Assembly: GCA_902802795.1 (NCBI GenBank)
Contig: CADCNI010000013.1
Coordinates: 1-56,689, forward strand
DNA length: 56,689 nucleotides
Origin: an uncultured Ruminococcus sp.
Lineage (GTDB): Bacteria; Bacillota; Clostridia; Oscillospirales; Acutalibacteraceae
Direction of reading: 5' to 3'
The notes below the pieces were generated by a model that was not told the DNA's origin, did not search any database, and saw only the letters and a program-made list of their open reading frames with translations. The stretch's first letter is position 1. Each line of letters starts with the position of its first letter. Positions 11,280-55,562 of this stretch are shown here, in pieces. The translations under genes were made by a program, and so were the position numbers.

Positions 11280-11630
11280 TGAGCAGAATAAACGGTCGCG
11301 TGCCTTGCTCCAAAGGGCATGGCATGAGGAAAGTCCGAGCATCGCAGGGCAGGATAACGGCTAACGGCCGCCGAGGGTGACCTTAGGGAAAGTGCAACAG
11401 AGATATACCGCCTGTTCCTTCGGGAGCGGGTAAGGGTGGAAAGGCGAGGTAAGAGCTCACCGGCTGCTGTGGAGACATGGCAGTCCTGTAAACCCTATCC
11501 GATGCAACATCGTGGTGGAACATATGCGGTTGCCCGCCGCGTTCCTAGGAGATGGCTGGAGCTGTGCAGCAATGTACAGTCGAGATAGATGACCGTTCAC
11601 GACAGAACTCGGCTTACAGTTCTGCTCATC
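11280..11630 (+). ncRNA. rnpB: RNase P RNA, bacterial class A
   Basis: This is the catalytic RNA that matures tRNA 5' ends. The 5' core has GAGGAAAGTCCGAGC followed by GCAGGGCAGGATAACGGCTA, then GGGAAAGTGCAACAGAGA (P4 and neighbouring core). The 3' half has GGTAAGGGTGGAAAGGCG, GTAAGAGCTCACCGGC, and the closing ACAGAACTCGGCTTACA. Ends were set by the P1 helix TGAGCAGAA (11280-11288) with TTCTGCTCA (11620-11628). Together with the following T6 run (11631-11636) it also shapes the terminator. The domain layout fits the ancestral class A rather than the Bacillus class B type. Confidence 0.96.
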
Positions 11631-11709
11631 TTTTTTCAGACAAGGCGCTGTTTTCCCGATCGGGCAAACGGCGCTTGTTGTTTTTGGTTTTATAAGGAGG
11701 AGTGTCACC

Positions 11710-48404: not shown

Positions 48405-49847
48405 TTACCCCAGCAGTTCTCTCAAAATCGCGGTGACGGTCTGGGGGTCGGCCTTGCCGCGCAGGGCGCGCATGGACTGACCGATCAGGTATTGCAGCGC
48501 CTTCTCCTTGCCGGACTTGTACTCGTCCACGGACTTCTGGTTCGCCGCAACGACTTCTTCGATGGCCGCTTTGACCGCGCCGGTGTCGGTAACGGTCTTG
48601 AGGTTGTGTTCCTCGACATATTTCACGGGGTCGCAACCCTCTTCAAAGACCGCCTTGAATACCTTCTTGGCGGTGTTGCGGGTGATTTCACTGCGCTGCA
48701 CCATGCCGATGAGCGCGCCGAGATAGCCGTAATCAAACGCCATTTCCTCCGGCTCCTTGCCGCTGTCGCTCAGCATACGCATGACTTCGCCCATAATCCA
48801 GTTGGCCAGCTCCTTGGCGGGATAGCCTGCCGCGAGATTTTCCTCAAACAGCGCCACCAGATATTTGGAAGTGGTGATCTGCGCCGCGTCGTATTCCGAA
48901 AGTCCCAGTTCGCCGACATAACGCTGGCGCTTGGCTTCGGGCAGCTCCGGCAGATTTTTGCGGGTTTCCTCGATGACTTCCTCGCTGATCTCGATGGGAA
49001 TGAGGTCAGGCTCCGGGAAATATTTGTAATCCTGCGCATCCTCCTTGGAACGCATGGCGAAGGACGCGTCCTTGTTGTCGTCCCAGCGGCGGGTTTCCTG
49101 CTTCACGGTGCCGCCTTCTTCCAGCACTTCGATCTGGCGCTTGGATTCGCCGTTAATGGCGCGGGCAATCGCCTTGAAGGAGTTCATGTTCTTCATTTCG
49201 GTACGGGTGCCGAATTTGTCCGAACCCACGGGACGGACGGAGAGGTTGATGTCGGCGCGCAGGGAACCTTCCTGCATCTTGCAGTCGGAAACGCCGATGA
49301 ATTGCAGGATCGCCTTGAGCTTTTCGAGGTAGCGGATGACTTCATTCGCGGAGCGGAAGTCGGGTTCGCTGACGATTTCGATCAGCGGCACGCCGCAGCG
49401 GTTGTAGTCCACCATGGTGGAATCCGTCCACGGGTCATGCACCAGCTTGCCCGCGTCCTCCTCCATGTGGATTTCATGAATGCCGATGATCTTCTTGCCG
49501 CCGCCCTCGGCTTCGATCTCCACGCCGCCGTTGCGGCAGATGGGCAGATAAAGCTGGCTGATCTGATACGCCTTGGGCAGGTCGGGGTAGAAGTAGTTTT
49601 TGCGGTCGAATTTATTGTAGCGGGTAATCTCGCAGTTCAGCGCAAGACCTGCGCGGGTCGCGTAGTTGACCACCTGACGGTTGAGCGAGGGCAGCACGCC
49701 GGGCATACCCGTGCAGACCGGGCAGCAGTGGGTGTTGGGCGCACCGCCGAATTCGGTGGTGCAGGAGCAGAAGATTTTGGTCTTGGTGGCAAGCTCCACA
49801 TGCACTTCCAGACCCATGACGATTTCCCATGATGTTGTTTTAGCCAT
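48405..49847 (-). CDS. gatB: Asp-tRNA(Asn)/Glu-tRNA(Gln) amidotransferase subunit B
   Basis: This 480-aa subunit binds the mischarged tRNA and activates its side chain with ATP. The N-terminal cradle has WEIVMGLEVHVELATKTKIFCSC and NTHCCPVCTGMPGVLPSLN, with zinc-type Cys pairs. The core has GVPLIEIVSEPDFRSANE and GSLRADINLSVRP. The C-terminal helical and YqeY-like tail ends in SMRALRGKADPQTVTAILRELL. Length and motifs are standard. It starts 18 bp after gatA and is the last gene of the operon. Confidence 0.96.
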   Translation of the reverse strand: MAKTTSWEIVMGLEVHVELATKTKIFCSCTTEFGGAPNTHCCPVCTGMPGVLPSLNRQVVNYATRAGLALNCEITRYNKFDRKNYFYPDLPKAYQISQLYLPICRNGGVEIEAEGGGKKIIGIHEIHMEEDAGKLVHDPWTDSTMVDYNRCGVPLIEIVSEPDFRSANEVIRYLEKLKAILQFIGVSDCKMQEGSLRADINLSVRPVGSDKFGTRTEMKNMNSFKAIARAINGESKRQIEVLEEGGTVKQETRRWDDNKDASFAMRSKEDAQDYKYFPEPDLIPIEISEEVIEETRKNLPELPEAKRQRYVGELGLSEYDAAQITTSKYLVALFEENLAAGYPAKELANWIMGEVMRMLSDSGKEPEEMAFDYGYLGALIGMVQRSEITRNTAKKVFKAVFEEGCDPVKYVEEHNLKTVTDTGAVKAAIEEVVAANQKSVDEYKSGKEKALQYLIGQSMRALRGKADPQTVTAILRELLG

Positions 49848-49865: not shown

Positions 49866-51335
49866 TTATCTGTTTTCCAGTTCCGTGGGCGTGCGCTTGT
49901 GCCAGTCGGTGACCTGCTGGTAGGCGTGTGCCGCGCCGAGAATCTTGGTTTCATCGAAGTAGTTGCCGATCAGGTGCATACCGACGGGCATGCCCTTGCC
50001 GTCAAAGCCGCAGGGAACCGACGCGGCGGGCAGTCCCGCGAGGTTAATCATGACGGTGTAGATGTCTCCGAGGTACATTTTCAGCGGGTCGGAGAGGTTC
50101 TCACCGATTTTCAGCGCGGTAGTCGGCGCAACCGGGCCGAGAATGAGGTCGTATTTCTCAAACGCCTTGTCAAACGCGCCTTTGATGAGCGCCTTGGCCT
50201 GCAGCGCCTTGCGGTAATACGCGTCGTAATAGCCGGAGGACAGTACGAAGCAGCCCAGCATGATGCGGCGCTTGACTTCCATGCCGAAGCCCTCGCTGCG
50301 GCTCTTGGTGTAGAGGTCGAGCAGGTCTTCAAAATCGTCGGCGCGGTAGCCGTATTTGATGCCGTCGTAGCGACTGAGGTTGCTGCTGGCTTCGGCAGAG
50401 GCGATGATGTAATAGGCGGGGATGGCGTATTTGACGATGGGCATATCGAATTTTTCCACCGTCGCGCCCATGCTTTCGAGCTGCTTGGCGGCGGCTTCGA
50501 TGGAGGCGGCGACTTCCTTGTCAAGACCCTCTCCGAAGAAGTCGGTGGGAATGCCGATCTTCATGCCCTTGACGTCGGTATGCAGCACCGCGTCGAGGGC
50601 AACGCCCTTGGTGGCGACGCTGGTGTTGTCTTTCTTGTCCTGCTTCATGATCTCACCGAGCACGGCGGCGCAGTCGGCGGCATTGCGCGCGAGCGGGCCG
50701 ATCTGGTCAAGCGAACTGGCGTAAGCCACCAGTCCGAAACGGGACACGGAGCCATAGGTCGGCTTGATGCCCGTCACGCCGCAGAACGACGCGGGCTGGC
50801 GGATACTTCCGCCCGTGTCGGAACCCAGTGCGTAGAAGCATTCGCCCGCGGCGACCGCCGCCGCCGAACCGCCCGAAGAACCGCCGGGAACGCAATTGAC
50901 ATTCCACGGATTCTTCGTCGCGCCGAAATAACTGGTTTCGGAGGTGGAACCCATGGCGAATTCGTCCATATTGAGCTTGCCGAGCGGCACCGCGCCGGCT
51001 TTCATGATTTCCTCCACGGCGGTGGCGCTGTAGGTGGGCTTGAAATTGCCCAGCATGCGGGAGCCGCAGGAGGTCTGGATGCCTTTCTGGCACATATTAT
51101 CCTTAATGCCCATCGGCACGCCCGCGAGCGGAGAAGTGTACTCACCGGAAGTGATTTTCTGCTGCACTTCTTCGGCTCTCTGAAGCACGTCGTCCTGCAC
51201 CGTGACGAAGCAGGAGAAGCGGCTGTTGTATTTGTCAATCTGCCCGAGCGAGAACTTCGCGGCTTCCACGGCGCTGATTTCGCCTTTTTTGATCGCCGCG
51301 CCCAGCTCAAGGGCCGTCATATCTGCAAGGTTCAT
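49866..51335 (-). CDS. gatA: Asp-tRNA(Asn)/Glu-tRNA(Gln) amidotransferase subunit A
   Basis: This 489-aa amidase releases ammonia from glutamine for subunit B. The amidase-signature triad is visible: Lys in GVPMGIKDN, cis-Ser in GSDTGGSIRQPAS and the nucleophile Ser in the GGSSGGSAAAVAAG region. Start at 51335, 9 bp after AAAGGA; longer in-frame starts run through the intergenic heptad repeat. It follows gatC by 108 bp. Confidence 0.96.
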   Translation of the reverse strand: MNLADMTALELGAAIKKGEISAVEAAKFSLGQIDKYNSRFSCFVTVQDDVLQRAEEVQQKITSGEYTSPLAGVPMGIKDNMCQKGIQTSCGSRMLGNFKPTYSATAVEEIMKAGAVPLGKLNMDEFAMGSTSETSYFGATKNPWNVNCVPGGSSGGSAAAVAAGECFYALGSDTGGSIRQPASFCGVTGIKPTYGSVSRFGLVAYASSLDQIGPLARNAADCAAVLGEIMKQDKKDNTSVATKGVALDAVLHTDVKGMKIGIPTDFFGEGLDKEVAASIEAAAKQLESMGATVEKFDMPIVKYAIPAYYIIASAEASSNLSRYDGIKYGYRADDFEDLLDLYTKSRSEGFGMEVKRRIMLGCFVLSSGYYDAYYRKALQAKALIKGAFDKAFEKYDLILGPVAPTTALKIGENLSDPLKMYLGDIYTVMINLAGLPAASVPCGFDGKGMPVGMHLIGNYFDETKILGAAHAYQQVTDWHKRTPTELENR

Positions 51336-51443: not shown

Positions 51444-51731
51444 TTATTCAAACGAACGCGGCACGAGGAAGTAGTTGTCTTTCTGTGCGGGGGCGTTTTT
51501 CAGTACATCCTCGGTGGGAATGGAGGGCTGCACCTCGTCCTCACGCATGACGTTGGTGAGCGGGAGCGCGTGGCTCATCGGCTCGATGCCCTCGGTGTCC
51601 AGCTCGGACAGTGTGTCGATATATTGCAGAATCTCCTGCAAATCGCTCTGTGCCTTGGCACGGCTCTCCTCGGGCAGCTTGATTCTGCCCAGTGCCTCCA
51701 GATATGTTACCAATTCATCGGTGATAACCAT
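51444..51731 (-). CDS. gatC: Asp-tRNA(Asn)/Glu-tRNA(Gln) amidotransferase subunit C
   Basis: This 95-aa subunit wraps around GatA and stabilises the GatAB complex. It has the usual VTYLEALGRIKLPEESRAK helix, QEILQYIDTLSELDTEGIEPMSHAL and a C-terminal REDEVQPSIPTEDVLKNAPAQ ending in FLVPRSFE. It begins 3 bp after the stop of the upstream small gene, with AAAGGAG inside that gene's end. Confidence 0.95.
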   Translation of the reverse strand: MVITDELVTYLEALGRIKLPEESRAKAQSDLQEILQYIDTLSELDTEGIEPMSHALPLTNVMREDEVQPSIPTEDVLKNAPAQKDNYFLVPRSFE

Positions 51732-51734
51732 TTT

Positions 51735-52211
51735 TTATCGTATCTCCTTTCTTGGGGAAAAATCCATTTCTTTATTGTAGACGGTCAGAAAAGCGCCGCT
51801 GTGATTGTCGGTGTGTTCAAAGAGCGCCCACTGCTCCTGTTCCTCGCCGTAATGCGGGGAAGCAGCGTTGGCAATGAGGCATTGCACCGTGACCCCGTTG
51901 TCCATCGTGATGATGAGGTCATGCAGCGGATTTATTTCCGCCGTCAGCACCGTGCCGCCGATCATTTCGGCGCGGTATTGTGTCATATTCCACCATTCGT
52001 CGTTGTTCGTGCTGACTTCTCCGTCCCACGATTGATAATCGCAGGTGGTAAGAAGAATGTCGCTGCCGCGAACCACTCTGGTGCAGCCCATCGCGTGCAG
52101 CACCAGATCATCGCTGAAACCGAAATCGAGGATATCGGCCTCGCAGCAGAAAGATTCCAGCTTCTTTCCGACAAGCGTGCGGATGAATGCGGTGATGTCC
52201 GGTTCTGTCAT
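51735..52211 (-). CDS. Hypothetical protein in the aspS-gat operon
   Basis: I do not recognise this 158-aa soluble, acidic protein. It has an N-terminal helix, then strands with MGCTRVVRGSDILLTTCDYQSWDGE. A second half (GGTVLTAEINPLHDLIITMDNGVTVQCLIAN...EQWALFE) is faintly like DUF6188-type small proteins that end in a W.L/F strand. It sits 98 bp after aspS and 3 bp before gatC, so it is co-transcribed with the transamidation genes. A role in tRNA charging is only a guess from position. Confidence 0.7.
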   Translation of the reverse strand: MTEPDITAFIRTLVGKKLESFCCEADILDFGFSDDLVLHAMGCTRVVRGSDILLTTCDYQSWDGEVSTNNDEWWNMTQYRAEMIGGTVLTAEINPLHDLIITMDNGVTVQCLIANAASPHYGEEQEQWALFEHTDNHSGAFLTVYNKEMDFSPRKEIR

Positions 52212-52250
52212 TTTACATCAATCCATTCCAGCGCGAAGCGCTCCGACATG

Positions 52251-52292
52251 ATTCTCTATTCTTTATTCTTTATTCTTTATTCACTATTCTTT
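52251..52292. repeat. Heptanucleotide tandem repeat (ATTCTTT)6
   Basis: Six 7-bp units: ATTCTCT, three ATTCTTT, ATTCACT, ATTCTTT. The array lies between aspS and the hypothetical gene. Confidence 0.92.
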
Positions 52293-52309: not shown

Positions 52310-53632
52310 TCAAGGTACCAGTCGCAGCATGTCGCGGGGGAACATGGAGGAATAGCGGATGTTGTCGTCGTTGAAAAGACGCATGGTGAGACGCTCCAGA
52401 CCGATGCCGAGACCGCCGTGCGGGGGCATGCCGTGCTTGTGAATGTTGAGGTAGGTCGCGAAGTCGTCGGGGTTCATCTTTTTCCTGATGATTTTGGCAA
52501 CCTGTTCGTTATAGTCGTGGATTCTCTGGCCGCCGGTGGTGACTTCCAGTCCGCGGAAAAGCAGGTCAAAGCTCAGGGTGTAGTTGGGGTCTTCGGGATC
52601 GTCCATCGCATAGAAGGGACGCTTCTTGGCGGGGTAATGGGTGACAAAGACGAAATCGGAGTTGTATTTCTCCTTGAAATACTTGCCGATAAGCTGTTCC
52701 TCGTCGGGGTCAAGGTCATAGGGGTCCTTGATCTCTCTGCCGTACTCGGCGGCAATGAGTTCCTTGGCCTCCTTGAAACGGACGTTGGGAATGCTTTCGA
52801 TGACCGGGATATCCAGCTTCATGAGGGCAATTTCGCGGGGATACTTCTCGCGGATTCTGTCCATGACGAGTTTGAGCATACCGGTTTCGACCGCCATGAT
52901 GTCATAGAAGCTGTCGATGTAGCCCATCTCGAAGTCCATGCTGATATATTCGTTGAGGTGGCGGGCGGTGTTGTGCTTTTCGGCGCGGAACACGGGCGCG
53001 ACTTCATAGACACGCTCGTAAACGCCCACCATCGCCTGCTTGTAGAACTGCGGGCTTTGGGCAAGAACCGCCTTTTTGCCGAAGTATTCCATTTTAAAGA
53101 CGTTCGCGCCGCCCTCGGCCGCCTTGGCGTTGATCTTGGGGGTGTGAATCTCCACAAAGCCCTGTCCGTCGAGGTAGTCGCGGAAGCCGCGCACGATCTC
53201 CGACTGAATGCGGAAACGGGTGCGGTAGTTGCCGTTGCGCAGGGTGATGTTGCGCAGCGGAATTTCATTTTCCAGCGCGGCGGTGATCTTGTGCTTGTTG
53301 ATGCTGATGGGCATGGGCGCGGCGGGCTTGGAAAGCACCTTGCCGCTGCTCACGACGATTTCATAGCCGCCGGGCGCGCGCTTTTCCTCGCGGACGGTGC
53401 CTGTCACTTCCACGCAGGCCTCCTCCACCAGGCTTTCGCCGCCGAAGTCACAGCCGCTCTGCACGGTGCACTGGCACATACCGTCGGGCAGACGCAGCAC
53501 CACAAAGGAAAATTCGCCCATGTCGCGGATGATGTGAATGCCGCCGTGAATGGTGATTTCCCCGCCGTTGGCCGCGGCAACGTCTTTCACGCTGAGCGGC
53601 TTTTTCACGTCTTTGGGATTGGTAAATTCCAT
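52310..53632 (-). CDS. aspS: Aspartate--tRNA ligase, archaeal-type, probably non-discriminating (Asp/Asn)
   Basis: This 440-aa class II enzyme has an N-terminal OB-fold (about 15-105) and a catalytic core without the bacterial GAD insertion, so it is the short archaeal type. Motif 2 is VYEVAPVFRAEKHNTARHLNEY. The C-terminal motif 3 is GLGIGLERLTMRLFN. DYLDGQGFVEIHTPKI precedes the active site. Archaeal-type AspRS in bacteria commonly charges both tRNA(Asp) and tRNA(Asn). Its operon with gatCAB fits conversion of Asp-tRNA(Asn) to Asn-tRNA(Asn). The ATG at 53632 is 10 bp after AAGGAG; a TTG at 53638 is too close. The leader carries an apparent attenuator (53796-53990). Confidence 0.95.
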   Translation of the reverse strand: MEFTNPKDVKKPLSVKDVAAANGGEITIHGGIHIIRDMGEFSFVVLRLPDGMCQCTVQSGCDFGGESLVEEACVEVTGTVREEKRAPGGYEIVVSSGKVLSKPAAPMPISINKHKITAALENEIPLRNITLRNGNYRTRFRIQSEIVRGFRDYLDGQGFVEIHTPKINAKAAEGGANVFKMEYFGKKAVLAQSPQFYKQAMVGVYERVYEVAPVFRAEKHNTARHLNEYISMDFEMGYIDSFYDIMAVETGMLKLVMDRIREKYPREIALMKLDIPVIESIPNVRFKEAKELIAAEYGREIKDPYDLDPDEEQLIGKYFKEKYNSDFVFVTHYPAKKRPFYAMDDPEDPNYTLSFDLLFRGLEVTTGGQRIHDYNEQVAKIIRKKMNPDDFATYLNIHKHGMPPHGGLGIGLERLTMRLFNDDNIRYSSMFPRDMLRLVP

Positions 53633-53659
53633 AATCAACAGTCTCCTTTTTGCAAATGA

Positions 53660-53795
53660 AGATAATAGATAACAGATAATAAGGAATAGAGAATCGTTTC
53701 GGAGGGCTTCGCCCTGAATCCATACAAATAAAATGGCACCGCAGGCGCTTTACCGCCTCTCTTATCTCTTATCTTTTATCTATTATCTCTTATCC
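53660..53795. repeat. Inverted pair of heptad arrays, (AGATAAT)5 and (CTTATCT)5
   Basis: Five 7-bp units at 53660-53694 and five at 53761-53795 are inversely complementary with few mismatches. They would form a 35-bp hairpin arm around a 66-bp centre that itself holds AGGGCTTCGCCCT and GGCGCTTTACCGCC hairpins. The pair lies in the aspS leader between the terminator and the start codon. Confidence 0.85.
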
Positions 53796-53831
53796 AAAAA
53801 AATGTCCCCCCGAATGCGCAACGGGAGGACA
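53796..53831 (-). terminator. Attenuator terminator in the aspS leader
   Basis: TGTCCTCCCG (53831-53822) pairs with CGGGGGGACA (53812-53803), one G-U, 9-nt loop, followed by T7 (53802-53796). Its 5' strand is also the partner of the antiterminator strand. Confidence 0.85.
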
Positions 53832-53881
53832 CTGAGCTTTCTATGCCAATGTGCAAGATGAAACCACAGCGCCTCCCGTCA
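53821..53881 (-). promoter_or_regulatory. Antiterminator helix of the aspS leader
   Basis: ACGGGAGG (53879-53872), which begins just after the leader's Asn codons, is perfectly complementary to CCTCCCGT (53828-53821), extendable by two G-U pairs. Forming this helix removes seven of the ten 5' bases of the terminator stem, so the two structures exclude each other. Confidence 0.65.
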
Positions 53882-53936
53882 TATTATTATTATTGTTTGC
53901 AAACGCGTCATAAATACAATGCATACGATCACCCAT
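53841..53936 (-). CDS. Leader peptide with five consecutive Asn codons
   Basis: A 31-codon ORF starts at the ATG 53936-53934, 9 bp after AAAGGTG, and ends at TAG 53843-53841. Codons 14-18 (53897-53883) are AAC AAT AAT AAT AAT, all Asn. The antiterminator strand begins 3 nt past them and the terminator 9 nt past the stop. The peptide has no other sign of function. It fits a ribosome-stalling leader whose translation reports Asn-tRNA(Asn) supply to the operon that makes it. The alternative, that it is an independent microprotein, is less likely given its place. Confidence 0.7.
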   Translation of the reverse strand: MGDRMHCIYDAFANNNNNMTGGAVVSSCTLA

Positions 53937-53984
53937 GACAAGCGACACCTTTCATCACCTCACAAAAATAGCTCTTTAACGGAT

Positions 53985-54014
53985 ATTATAGCATGATGCC
54001 CTGTATTCCGTCAA
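53985..54014 (-). promoter_or_regulatory. Promoter of the aspS-gatCAB leader
   Basis: TTGACG (54014-54009), 18-bp spacer, TATAAT (53990-53985) with TGC before it (extended -10). Predicted start about 53978. I see no other good promoter between the terminator and aspS. Confidence 0.8.
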
Positions 54015-54127: not shown

Positions 54128-54157
54128 TTGACATTGCCATTTTCCGCGGTGTAAAAT
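54128..54157 (+). promoter_or_regulatory. Promoter of the LCP gene
   Basis: TTGACA (54128-54133), 18-bp spacer, TAAAAT (54152-54157). Confidence 0.75.
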
Positions 54158-54197
54158 GAGGGTATGCCAAAATCGGTATTACAGGGAGGTGTGTGTG

Positions 54198-55562
54198 TTG
54201 GGCGACGAAAGCAAGGAATCGCAGAAAACCGAAGAAAACCCGGAAACGAAAGAAAAGCAGGAACCTAAAGAGCCGCAGGAAATCTATGCTTTTTCCACGC
54301 CGACGGGCATTTCTCTGGCCGCCGGAGACGTCAGACTGGAGCCGCTGCCGGAAATATCGGCACTGGCCGACGAAATCAGGCAGGACGCAAGGAAACAGCC
54401 CGCCGTCATCCACCGCCGACAGCCCTCTCCCCCCTCCGCCGAACCAAAAGCCCCGTCCCAAAAGCCCGCCCACGGATTTCGCAAGAAAATGCGAAAACTC
54501 AGCCGCGGCAAAAAAATCGCGGTCGCGGCGGTTCTGACCGTCTTTGCGGGACTGCTGGTTTTTACGGTGTGGCATGCCATCGCTGTGATGAACATCTTCG
54601 GGGCGGTCAATTATGTAGACAGCCGGCCGGATTTTGAAAAAACGGAGCTGCTGGTGAGTCAGTCCGCCATGCAGCAGATTCAGCTCCACGTCTCCCACAC
54701 CGACGAAACCAAAAACATCCTGCTCATCGGCTGCGACATCGATCAATACGGCATTTCCCGTTCTGACAGCATGATTATTCTGTCGCTCGACCACACCCAC
54801 CAAAAAATCAAGATGACCTCGCTCATGCGCGACATGCGCTTGCAGATTCCCGGCAAAGGCAAGCACAAGCTCAACGCGGCGTTTACCTACGGCGGCGGCG
54901 ATCTGGTGCTCACCACGATTTACGCCAACTTCGGTATCAGGATCGACAAATATGTATGTGTGGATTACGCGGCGTTCGCGGCCGTGGTGGATTACATCGG
55001 CGGCGTGGACGTGGAAATCGAGGAAATGGAGCTGGAGCAGTTCAACAAATACGTCCGCGGCAAAAACAACCAACTGACGCAGGCCGGCACCTACGCTTTC
55101 AACGGGCAGCAGGCGCTCTCCTACTGCCGCATCCGCAAGGTCGGCTCCGATACCGCCCGCACCGCCCGACAGCGCAAGGTACTCGGCAAAATCATGACCA
55201 AGTGCCGCGGCATGTCGCTGGTGAGCGCGGAGAACATGCTGCGCATCATCGCCCCCTCTCTCACCACCAATCTCACCCGCGCCGAAATCATACAATTGAT
55301 GGCGGAGGGTCTTGACTGCAAGGATTACGACACCCTCGGCGCCCGCATTCCCGTTAACGGCACATGGGACGACGTGATCATCGACAAAATTTGGTATGTC
55401 AAAGCCGATCTCAACCGCAACGCCCGCTATCTCAATGAATTTATTTACGGCGACGATGACGCCGCCCTTTCCATCGCCTCCCGCGTGTCCGAAAGCGACA
55501 GCCGGAACCAAGCCCTCGACCGCAAAAATTACGAAAAGAAAAAAGCAAAAGCCGCTTCCTGA
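54198..55562 (+). CDS. LytR-CpsA-Psr (LCP) family wall-polymer transferase
   Basis: This 454-aa type II membrane protein has a 95-residue Glu/Lys/Pro-rich cytoplasmic tail, a membrane segment (about 112-135) and an extracytoplasmic LCP domain: ETKNILLIGCDIDQYGISRSDSMIILSLDHTHQKIKMTSLMRDMRL across the first strands, then KLNAAFTYGGGDL, YVCVDYAAFAAVVDYIGGVDVEI and the motif ALSYCRIRKVGSDTARTARQRKVL with the conserved Arg residues. LCP enzymes transfer teichoic acid or capsule chains from lipid carriers to peptidoglycan. Start: TTG at 54198, 8 bp after AGGGAGG; GTG at 54195 is the alternative. Confidence 0.92.
   Translation: MGDESKESQKTEENPETKEKQEPKEPQEIYAFSTPTGISLAAGDVRLEPLPEISALADEIRQDARKQPAVIHRRQPSPPSAEPKAPSQKPAHGFRKKMRKLSRGKKIAVAAVLTVFAGLLVFTVWHAIAVMNIFGAVNYVDSRPDFEKTELLVSQSAMQQIQLHVSHTDETKNILLIGCDIDQYGISRSDSMIILSLDHTHQKIKMTSLMRDMRLQIPGKGKHKLNAAFTYGGGDLVLTTIYANFGIRIDKYVCVDYAAFAAVVDYIGGVDVEIEEMELEQFNKYVRGKNNQLTQAGTYAFNGQQALSYCRIRKVGSDTARTARQRKVLGKIMTKCRGMSLVSAENMLRIIAPSLTTNLTRAEIIQLMAEGLDCKDYDTLGARIPVNGTWDDVIIDKIWYVKADLNRNARYLNEFIYGDDDAALSIASRVSESDSRNQALDRKNYEKKKAKAAS

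Follow-up and report, generated by a model that had tools for sequence, protein, structure and literature searches.

The window, i.e., the whole stretch of 56,689 nucleotides analysed here, carries on its minus strand, in the 5' to 3' direction, a promoter, a short ORF with a ribosome site, a switch, and then aspS, an ORF of 158 aa, gatC, gatA and gatB. The leader is flanked by aspS and by a divergent LytR-type gene (54156-55562, Pfam LytR_cpsA_psr). aspS (52310-53632, minus strand) codes for an archaeal-type AspRS of 440 aa, which scores 390.5 bits against TIGR00458 aspS_nondisc (cut-off 368.4), the family of aspartate--tRNA(Asn) ligases. On the same strand, gatC (51444-51731), gatA (49866-51335, start codon uncertain, with the family scan begun one codon 5' of the likely start) and gatB (48405-49847) match TIGR00135, TIGR00132 and TIGR00133, respectively. 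With all four families matched above their cut-offs, the naming of these enzymes as AspRS and GatCAB in an earlier note on this DNA is borne out. For the 158-aa ORF between aspS and gatC (51735-52211, minus strand), neither Pfam nor NCBIfam gave a match at E 0.001; in another genome of the genus (G157), an ORF similar to it ends immediately before gatC. Elsewhere in the window, a class A RNase P RNA is located at 11280-11632 (285 bits).

A PF00152 search of the organism's own genome (98.2% complete) found a bacterial AspRS (TIGR00459) and the archaeal-type AspRS, and no AsnRS. GlnRS is present (712.5 bits, cut-off 425.8), as is one gene with an asparagine synthetase domain. Because GlnRS is present and AsnRS was not detected, GatCAB should here serve the formation of Asn-tRNA(Asn) rather than of Gln-tRNA(Gln).

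With 89-114 bits, a covariance model of the leader's core located the element in 9 of the 18 genomes of the genus, all other matches scoring 33 bits or less, and the leader of the window is described here together with the other eight copies. Transcription would start from a sigma70-type promoter, TTGACG-18-TATAAT (53985-54014, minus strand; 11/12 consensus matches), which is of the same type in all nine leaders; the TG of the extended -10 promoter claimed earlier can be read ahead of TATAAT. A main transcription start downstream of the terminator had been named as a point against attenuation, and the promoter scan of this strand revealed no promoter-like site between the terminator and aspS, the only weak one (9/12) lying within the leader and 5' of the terminator (53911-53883). 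At four of the related loci (L035, L036, L037 and L039), only 22-25 nt separate the modelled terminator end from the aspS start. In the window, this interval contains an A/T-rich inverted repeat (53650-53797), with partial copies of 76-93% identity at 52206-52281 and on contigs C7, C9, C21 and C28. It was seen by eye in L034, not in L033 or L035-L039, and looks like a small dispersed element.

The leader ORF (MSLVMGDRMHCIYDAFANNNNNMTGGAVVSSCTLA, 53841-53948, minus strand) is preceded by the ribosome-binding site GAGGTGAT (53955-53962) and consists of 35 codons from a GTG start, followed by the stop codon TAG (53843-53841). While the ORF, frame and ribosome site described in the earlier note stand, its start at ATG 53936 (31 aa) is less likely than GTG 53948 (35 aa), because in the relatives a GTG, TTG or ATG and a peptide start of [VLM][SP]L are kept shortly after the ribosome site. 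In all nine copies, the AGGTG of the ribosome site, the start codon (a few to about a dozen bases further on) and the frame are kept. The stretch from the start to the regulatory run varies among them by whole codons, from 13 to 22. The run itself, read directly as five consecutive Asn codons in the window as claimed (AAC followed by four AAT, 53883-53897), is present in all nine copies with 3, 4, 5 or 6 Asn codons, AAC and AAT being interchanged and, in L036, one His inside (NNNHN). It ends one codon before the antiterminator strand R2 in every copy, and the distance from the first Asn codon to R2 is 12-21 nt. Judged by what is generally known of the ribosome's footprint size, this placement suits a stalled ribosome that would leave the antiterminator strand free. 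When the segment from the ribosome site to R2 was subjected to dinucleotide shuffling in eight of the nine leaders (L034, near-identical to the window, was left out), the frame stayed open in 4-13% of the shuffles, and the observed Asn run was reached in at most 0.07%. As in known attenuators, all nine leaders have a short ORF with a ribosome site directly 3' of the operon promoter and, within it, a run of codons for the amino acid that the operon supplies.

Beyond the Asn codons, ACGGGAGG (53879-53872) is exactly complementary to CCTCCCGT (53828-53821). This is the antiterminator pairing of 8-10 bp that had been proposed just past the run; the pairing holds, but the helix is longer. R2 (ACGGGAGGCGCTG, 53867-53879), which lies inside the ORF, forms 13 pairs with R3 (CAGTGTCCTCCCGT, 53821-53834), with one bulged U, and two further helices lie inside, UUUC (53860-53863) with GAAA (53838-53841) and UGC (53853-53855) with GCA (53844-53846). 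The same bases build the conserved end of the peptide (TGG..S[SP]C), for which a function as a peptide was considered and found unnecessary. R3 is also the 5' arm of an intrinsic terminator (TGTCCTCCCG / CGGGGGGACA, then T7; 53796-53831), whose arms (53831-53822 and 53812-53803, the latter being R4) enclose a loop of 9 and are followed by seven T (53802-53796). Since R3 is common to both, antiterminator and terminator are mutually exclusive. The claim of a T7 terminator whose 5' strand complements the antiterminator strand thus agrees with the direct reading and the folds, although a simple terminator scan, confined to loops of up to 8, omits this hairpin, which a dedicated script and the folds recover. 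The T run is interrupted in the terminators of L036, L037 and L039.

Folding predicts the two exclusive states in all nine copies: from R2 onward, the antiterminator has a pairing probability of 0.59-0.95, and with R2 masked, the terminator has one of 0.86-0.997. For the window's segment, 1 of 200 shuffles folds equally well (z -2.74). In the alignment, R2 and R3 are paired in 78 of 78 cells, and the structure of 20 pairs is kept in 97.9% of 140 cells. The earlier note had asked for covarying helices in the leaders of relatives. Conserved helices were indeed found, but the covariation is weak: of the 13 outer antiterminator pairs, 11 are invariant, and among the 7 distinct sequences there is one two-sided change (C-G to U-A, in L038) besides one from G-U to A-U. 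Because this level was reached by 93 of 500 shuffles in one test and by 60 of 500 in another, covariation proves nothing alone, and the helices are supported mostly by conservation. When the whole leader is folded without a ribosome, the terminator forms by way of an upstream R1:R2 helix in the window, L034, L037 and L039, the antiterminator forms in L035, L036, L038 and the copy in genome G165, and the copy in genome G150 is divided. As these ribosome-free folds differ among the nine copies, the protector (R1:R2) helix is, in the folding model, no conserved part of the element. A protector (1:2) helix is usual in trp attenuators, but it is not known to be required in all members of the class.

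Read from the DNA, the promoter, the ORF, the Asn run and its fixed spacing, the mutually exclusive helices, the conservation within the genus and the identity of the genes make it highly probable that the element is a ribosome-mediated transcription attenuator specific for Asn. The leader would then probably turn on the genes for Asn-tRNA formation when Asn-tRNA is short; stalling, its amino acid specificity, read-through and the physiological signal are what we infer from this arrangement. RNA polymerase would initiate at the promoter and a ribosome would begin the leader of 35 codons. With plentiful Asn-tRNA(Asn), the ribosome would cross the five Asn codons and then cover R2 within the ORF, so that R2 could not pair in time, R3 would pair with R4, and transcription would stop. 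With scarce Asn-tRNA(Asn), the ribosome would stall at the first Asn codons, at least 12 nt 5' of R2, and R2 would capture the emerging R3, in which case no terminator would form and aspS-gatCAB would be made. The products of these genes would replenish Asn-tRNA(Asn), closing the loop. R2 contains a Shine-Dalgarno-like GGGAGG (window 53877-53872) just past the Asn codons; one idea is that it could detain a passing ribosome over R2 and favour termination.

The folding model switches alike for any stall 5' of R2, so the leader might instead sense slow translation generally, as under antibiotics or starvation stress, with the AAT/AAC run serving chiefly as an unstructured spacer to position the ribosome. 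An A/T-rich unpaired spacer would suit the codon choice, as AAT outnumbers AAC by 24 to 9 in the runs of the 7 distinct leaders (which are related and hence not independent), while it is the less used of the two in the 36 long ORFs of the window (218 vs 344). But the changes within the run are mostly swaps between AAT and AAC, its length shifts by whole codons, and what the downstream genes produce is Asn-tRNA(Asn), in a genome that has GlnRS and no detected AsnRS. We thus regard a general sensor as improbable. Still less probable is that a trans-acting protein or small RNA sets the alternative helices and that translation of the short ORF is incidental. The cores of R2 and R3 are invariant, as a binding site would be, and the inner helices of the antiterminator account for much of the conserved peptide end. 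However, such invariance is also to be expected of a strand R3 that has two partners, R2 and R4; moreover, all nine copies have kept the ribosome site, the start and the frame, and the Asn codons accord with what the operon makes. It is hardly credible that the terminator is an ordinary one, serving to insulate aspS or to reduce basal expression, and that the ORF is there by chance: an exact upstream complement of at least 8 nt (to the terminator arm plus 3-nt margins) occurs at 1.2% of random sites, albeit not once among the window's other 7 terminator-like sites, and such a switch in a single sequence would therefore be only moderately unlikely by chance, but the ORF, Asn run, R2 spacing, R3 and terminator are jointly conserved in nine genomes, most of which differ in the sequence 5' of the promoter, and this conservation is the stronger argument.

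Asparagine-specific attenuation is thus the reading that we carry to the distribution of the element, which precedes aspS in 7 genomes and directly precedes gatC in 2 (G150 and G165). In a search for AspRS, 8 of the 18 genomes of the genus, the organism's own included, proved to have the archaeal-type enzyme, and at 6 of the other 7 (L033-L039), the upstream region shares the promoter, ORF, Asn run, R2, R3 and terminator. The exception is L033 in genome G157 (78% complete, 400 contigs), where the AspRS is 99% identical and the promoter runs directly into the aspS ribosome site with the whole element missing, which we interpret as a natural loss of the attenuator. G150 and G165 have no archaeal-type AspRS, and their copies are followed by gatC and then, in G150, by gatA and gatB (families confirmed) and, in G165, by ORFs of the same sizes. 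Hence the Asn run and both helices, whose presence in close relatives the earlier note had made a test of its proposal, are kept in 9 of the 18 genomes, and its assignment of the element to the aspS-gatCAB operon holds for the window and has to be broadened to include a position directly ahead of gatC. In G151, aspS with its attenuator and gatC are on different contigs (C17 and C87) and another ORF lies directly 5' of gatC, so that the two may be unlinked. The element is found in 7 of the 8 genomes with archaeal-type AspRS and in 2 of the 10 without (p 0.015, a generous value as the genomes are related). AsnRS is found in 1 of the 9 genomes with the element and in 5 of the 9 without, which is non-significant even at a p of 0.13 that is generous for the same reason.

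Searches beyond the genus returned no further copy. At E 0.01, 8 of 398 family genomes had a covariance match, of which five belong to the genus and the other three were weak, and at E 0.001, the only matches among 394 order genomes were in the organism's own and in one of these three. The three weak matches outside the genus, when read, were without a leader, and the element was found only in this genus, with the stricter filters of the family and order searches losing weak matches, so that a diverged cousin could have escaped. Other weak model matches (L188, L189, L191, L196, L199 and L202-L204) had no such leader by eye and look like chance terminators; the rest were opposite-strand echoes by position (L190, L192-L195 and L198) or scored 19-20 bits (L197, L200 and L201). 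A search of 150 family genomes with the leader DNA returned the organism's own genome and two with short weak matches, of which L010 falls within coding sequence and L009 is where a different gene starts after a similar promoter. No Asn leader was seen ahead of the AspRS gene at 14 other family loci (L012-L025), the only candidate being an ORF with NNN at L014, 541 nt upstream and with no R2, or at 73 other AspRS loci (L040-L112), where L108 and L112 have almost no upstream sequence, L103 has 212 bases and five others have less than 700. ORFs with scattered Asn codons at L062, L089 and L092 are unlike the leader.

The T-box model RF00230 (stem I and T-box sequence) has no match at the leader, and the three matches of any Rfam family there have E values of 4.9 or worse. 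Elsewhere in the organism's own genome, there are 11 T-box matches at E 0.001, two of them, among the matches listed, over the cut-off. T-boxes do occur on the same pathway in the genus. Seven of the 9 loci at which congeners encode a second bacterial AspRS match RF00230 (cmscan, E 0.001) with scores of 35-43 bits, which fall short of the gathering score of 93, and all five upstream regions examined hold the T-box sequence GGGTGGCACCGCGGG. In G150 (L161, L246), such a match of 35 bits, likewise below the gathering score, lies ahead of the second bacterial AspRS, after which come a GatC relative (E 6.7e-10 against GatC of the window), a GatA relative that is short (398 aa) and below the TIGR00132 cut-off, and GatB. 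The other gatCAB of this genome has the Asn leader, and one genome thereby holds both the leader and a sub-threshold T-box. Six genomes of the genus have an AsnRS (confirmed by TIGR00457 in two, and recognised in the rest from sequence and a PF00152 match), and their 6 AsnRS loci show no T-box at E 0.001 and no Asn leader by eye, with 179 bases of upstream sequence at L176. Eight congeners have neither the element nor the archaeal-type aspS; in 7 of them, a promoter of this kind was seen by eye 5' of gatC, near the gene in most and about 220 nt off in G155, and none was seen in G152. In a genome of another genus of the same family (G136), a T-box (L015, 2907-3152) with 108.9 bits, above the gathering score of 93, lies directly ahead of an archaeal-type aspS that is 60% identical to that of the window.

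The element shares with the trp, his, leu and ilv attenuators a promoter, a short ORF in which the regulatory codon is repeated, and mutually exclusive antiterminator and terminator with one strand in common; it differs in its Asn codons and in having, by the predicted folds, no conserved protector helix. In contrast to classical trp geometry, R2 is part of the ORF, and the antiterminator hairpin contains the stop codon. A reported T-box control of tRNA-dependent amidation in C. acetobutylicum, the subject of papers from 2012 and 2013 that are cited in PMC4206432, serves the same task, i.e., controlling amidation for Asn-tRNA(Asn), but the T-box binds uncharged tRNA, whereas here the translating ribosome would be the sensor. 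A parallel is the His leader peptide predicted on hisS/hisZ in Gram-positive bacilli, described as a leader peptide on a tRNA-charging gene for which relatives use a T-box (PMC2965389). That system concerns His and a direct synthetase, whereas the present one concerns Asn and an operon for two-step amidation, and here leader and T-box occur within one genus and, by the sub-threshold match, within G150. Leader-peptide attenuation in Bacillota is also described for Staphylococcus aureus ilv, with a leucine-rich attenuator peptide and supporting mutants, but for branched-chain biosynthesis, with Ile/Leu codons and another antiterminator design (PMC5794164). Predicted leader peptides in Actinobacteria concern trp, trpS, leuS, ilv and cys; a term search of that work gave no 'asparagine' or 'Asn' (PMC1262725). 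One survey reports no T-boxes before the amidotransferase genes of its genomes (PMC2494555). A literature search, mostly of titles and including few subscription papers, turned up no Asn leader peptide, nor any leader peptide ahead of gatCAB or aspS. While leader-peptide attenuation itself is well known, the specificity for Asn and the amidation operon as its target appear to be new.

The two kinds of sensor may differ in what they report. A T-box is described as telling charged from uncharged tRNA via the free 3' end (PMC2916919). As it senses this end only, it should be unable to distinguish the intermediate Asp-tRNA(Asn) from Asn-tRNA(Asn). EF-Tu is described as binding cognate better than mischarged aminoacyl-tRNA (PMC13131534), although this discrimination is incomplete, since mistranslation from Asp-tRNA(Asn) is dealt with in mycobacteria in the same source, and a transamidosome may conceal the intermediate (PMC7373986). 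Because translation partly favours Asn-tRNA(Asn) and a T-box reads acylation only, a leader peptide on gatCAB would report the amidation step. We tentatively propose, as a possibility somewhat short of an even chance, that the genus splits control of the pathway, with T-boxes monitoring acylation on the second AspRS operon and the leader-peptide attenuator monitoring finished Asn-tRNA(Asn) on gatCAB. The T-box directly ahead of archaeal-type aspS in G136 speaks against a strict division of labour. If the proposal is true, the attenuator would measure the tRNA amidation step, beyond charging. Asn-specific attenuation as such would extend the signals known for leader peptides to asparagine and tRNA-dependent amidation. 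Among the relatives, the pathway is found with a leader peptide, with a T-box, apparently without attenuation and with the attenuator deleted, which makes it testable why RNA sensors replace one another and, in particular, whether sensing of the amidated product matters.
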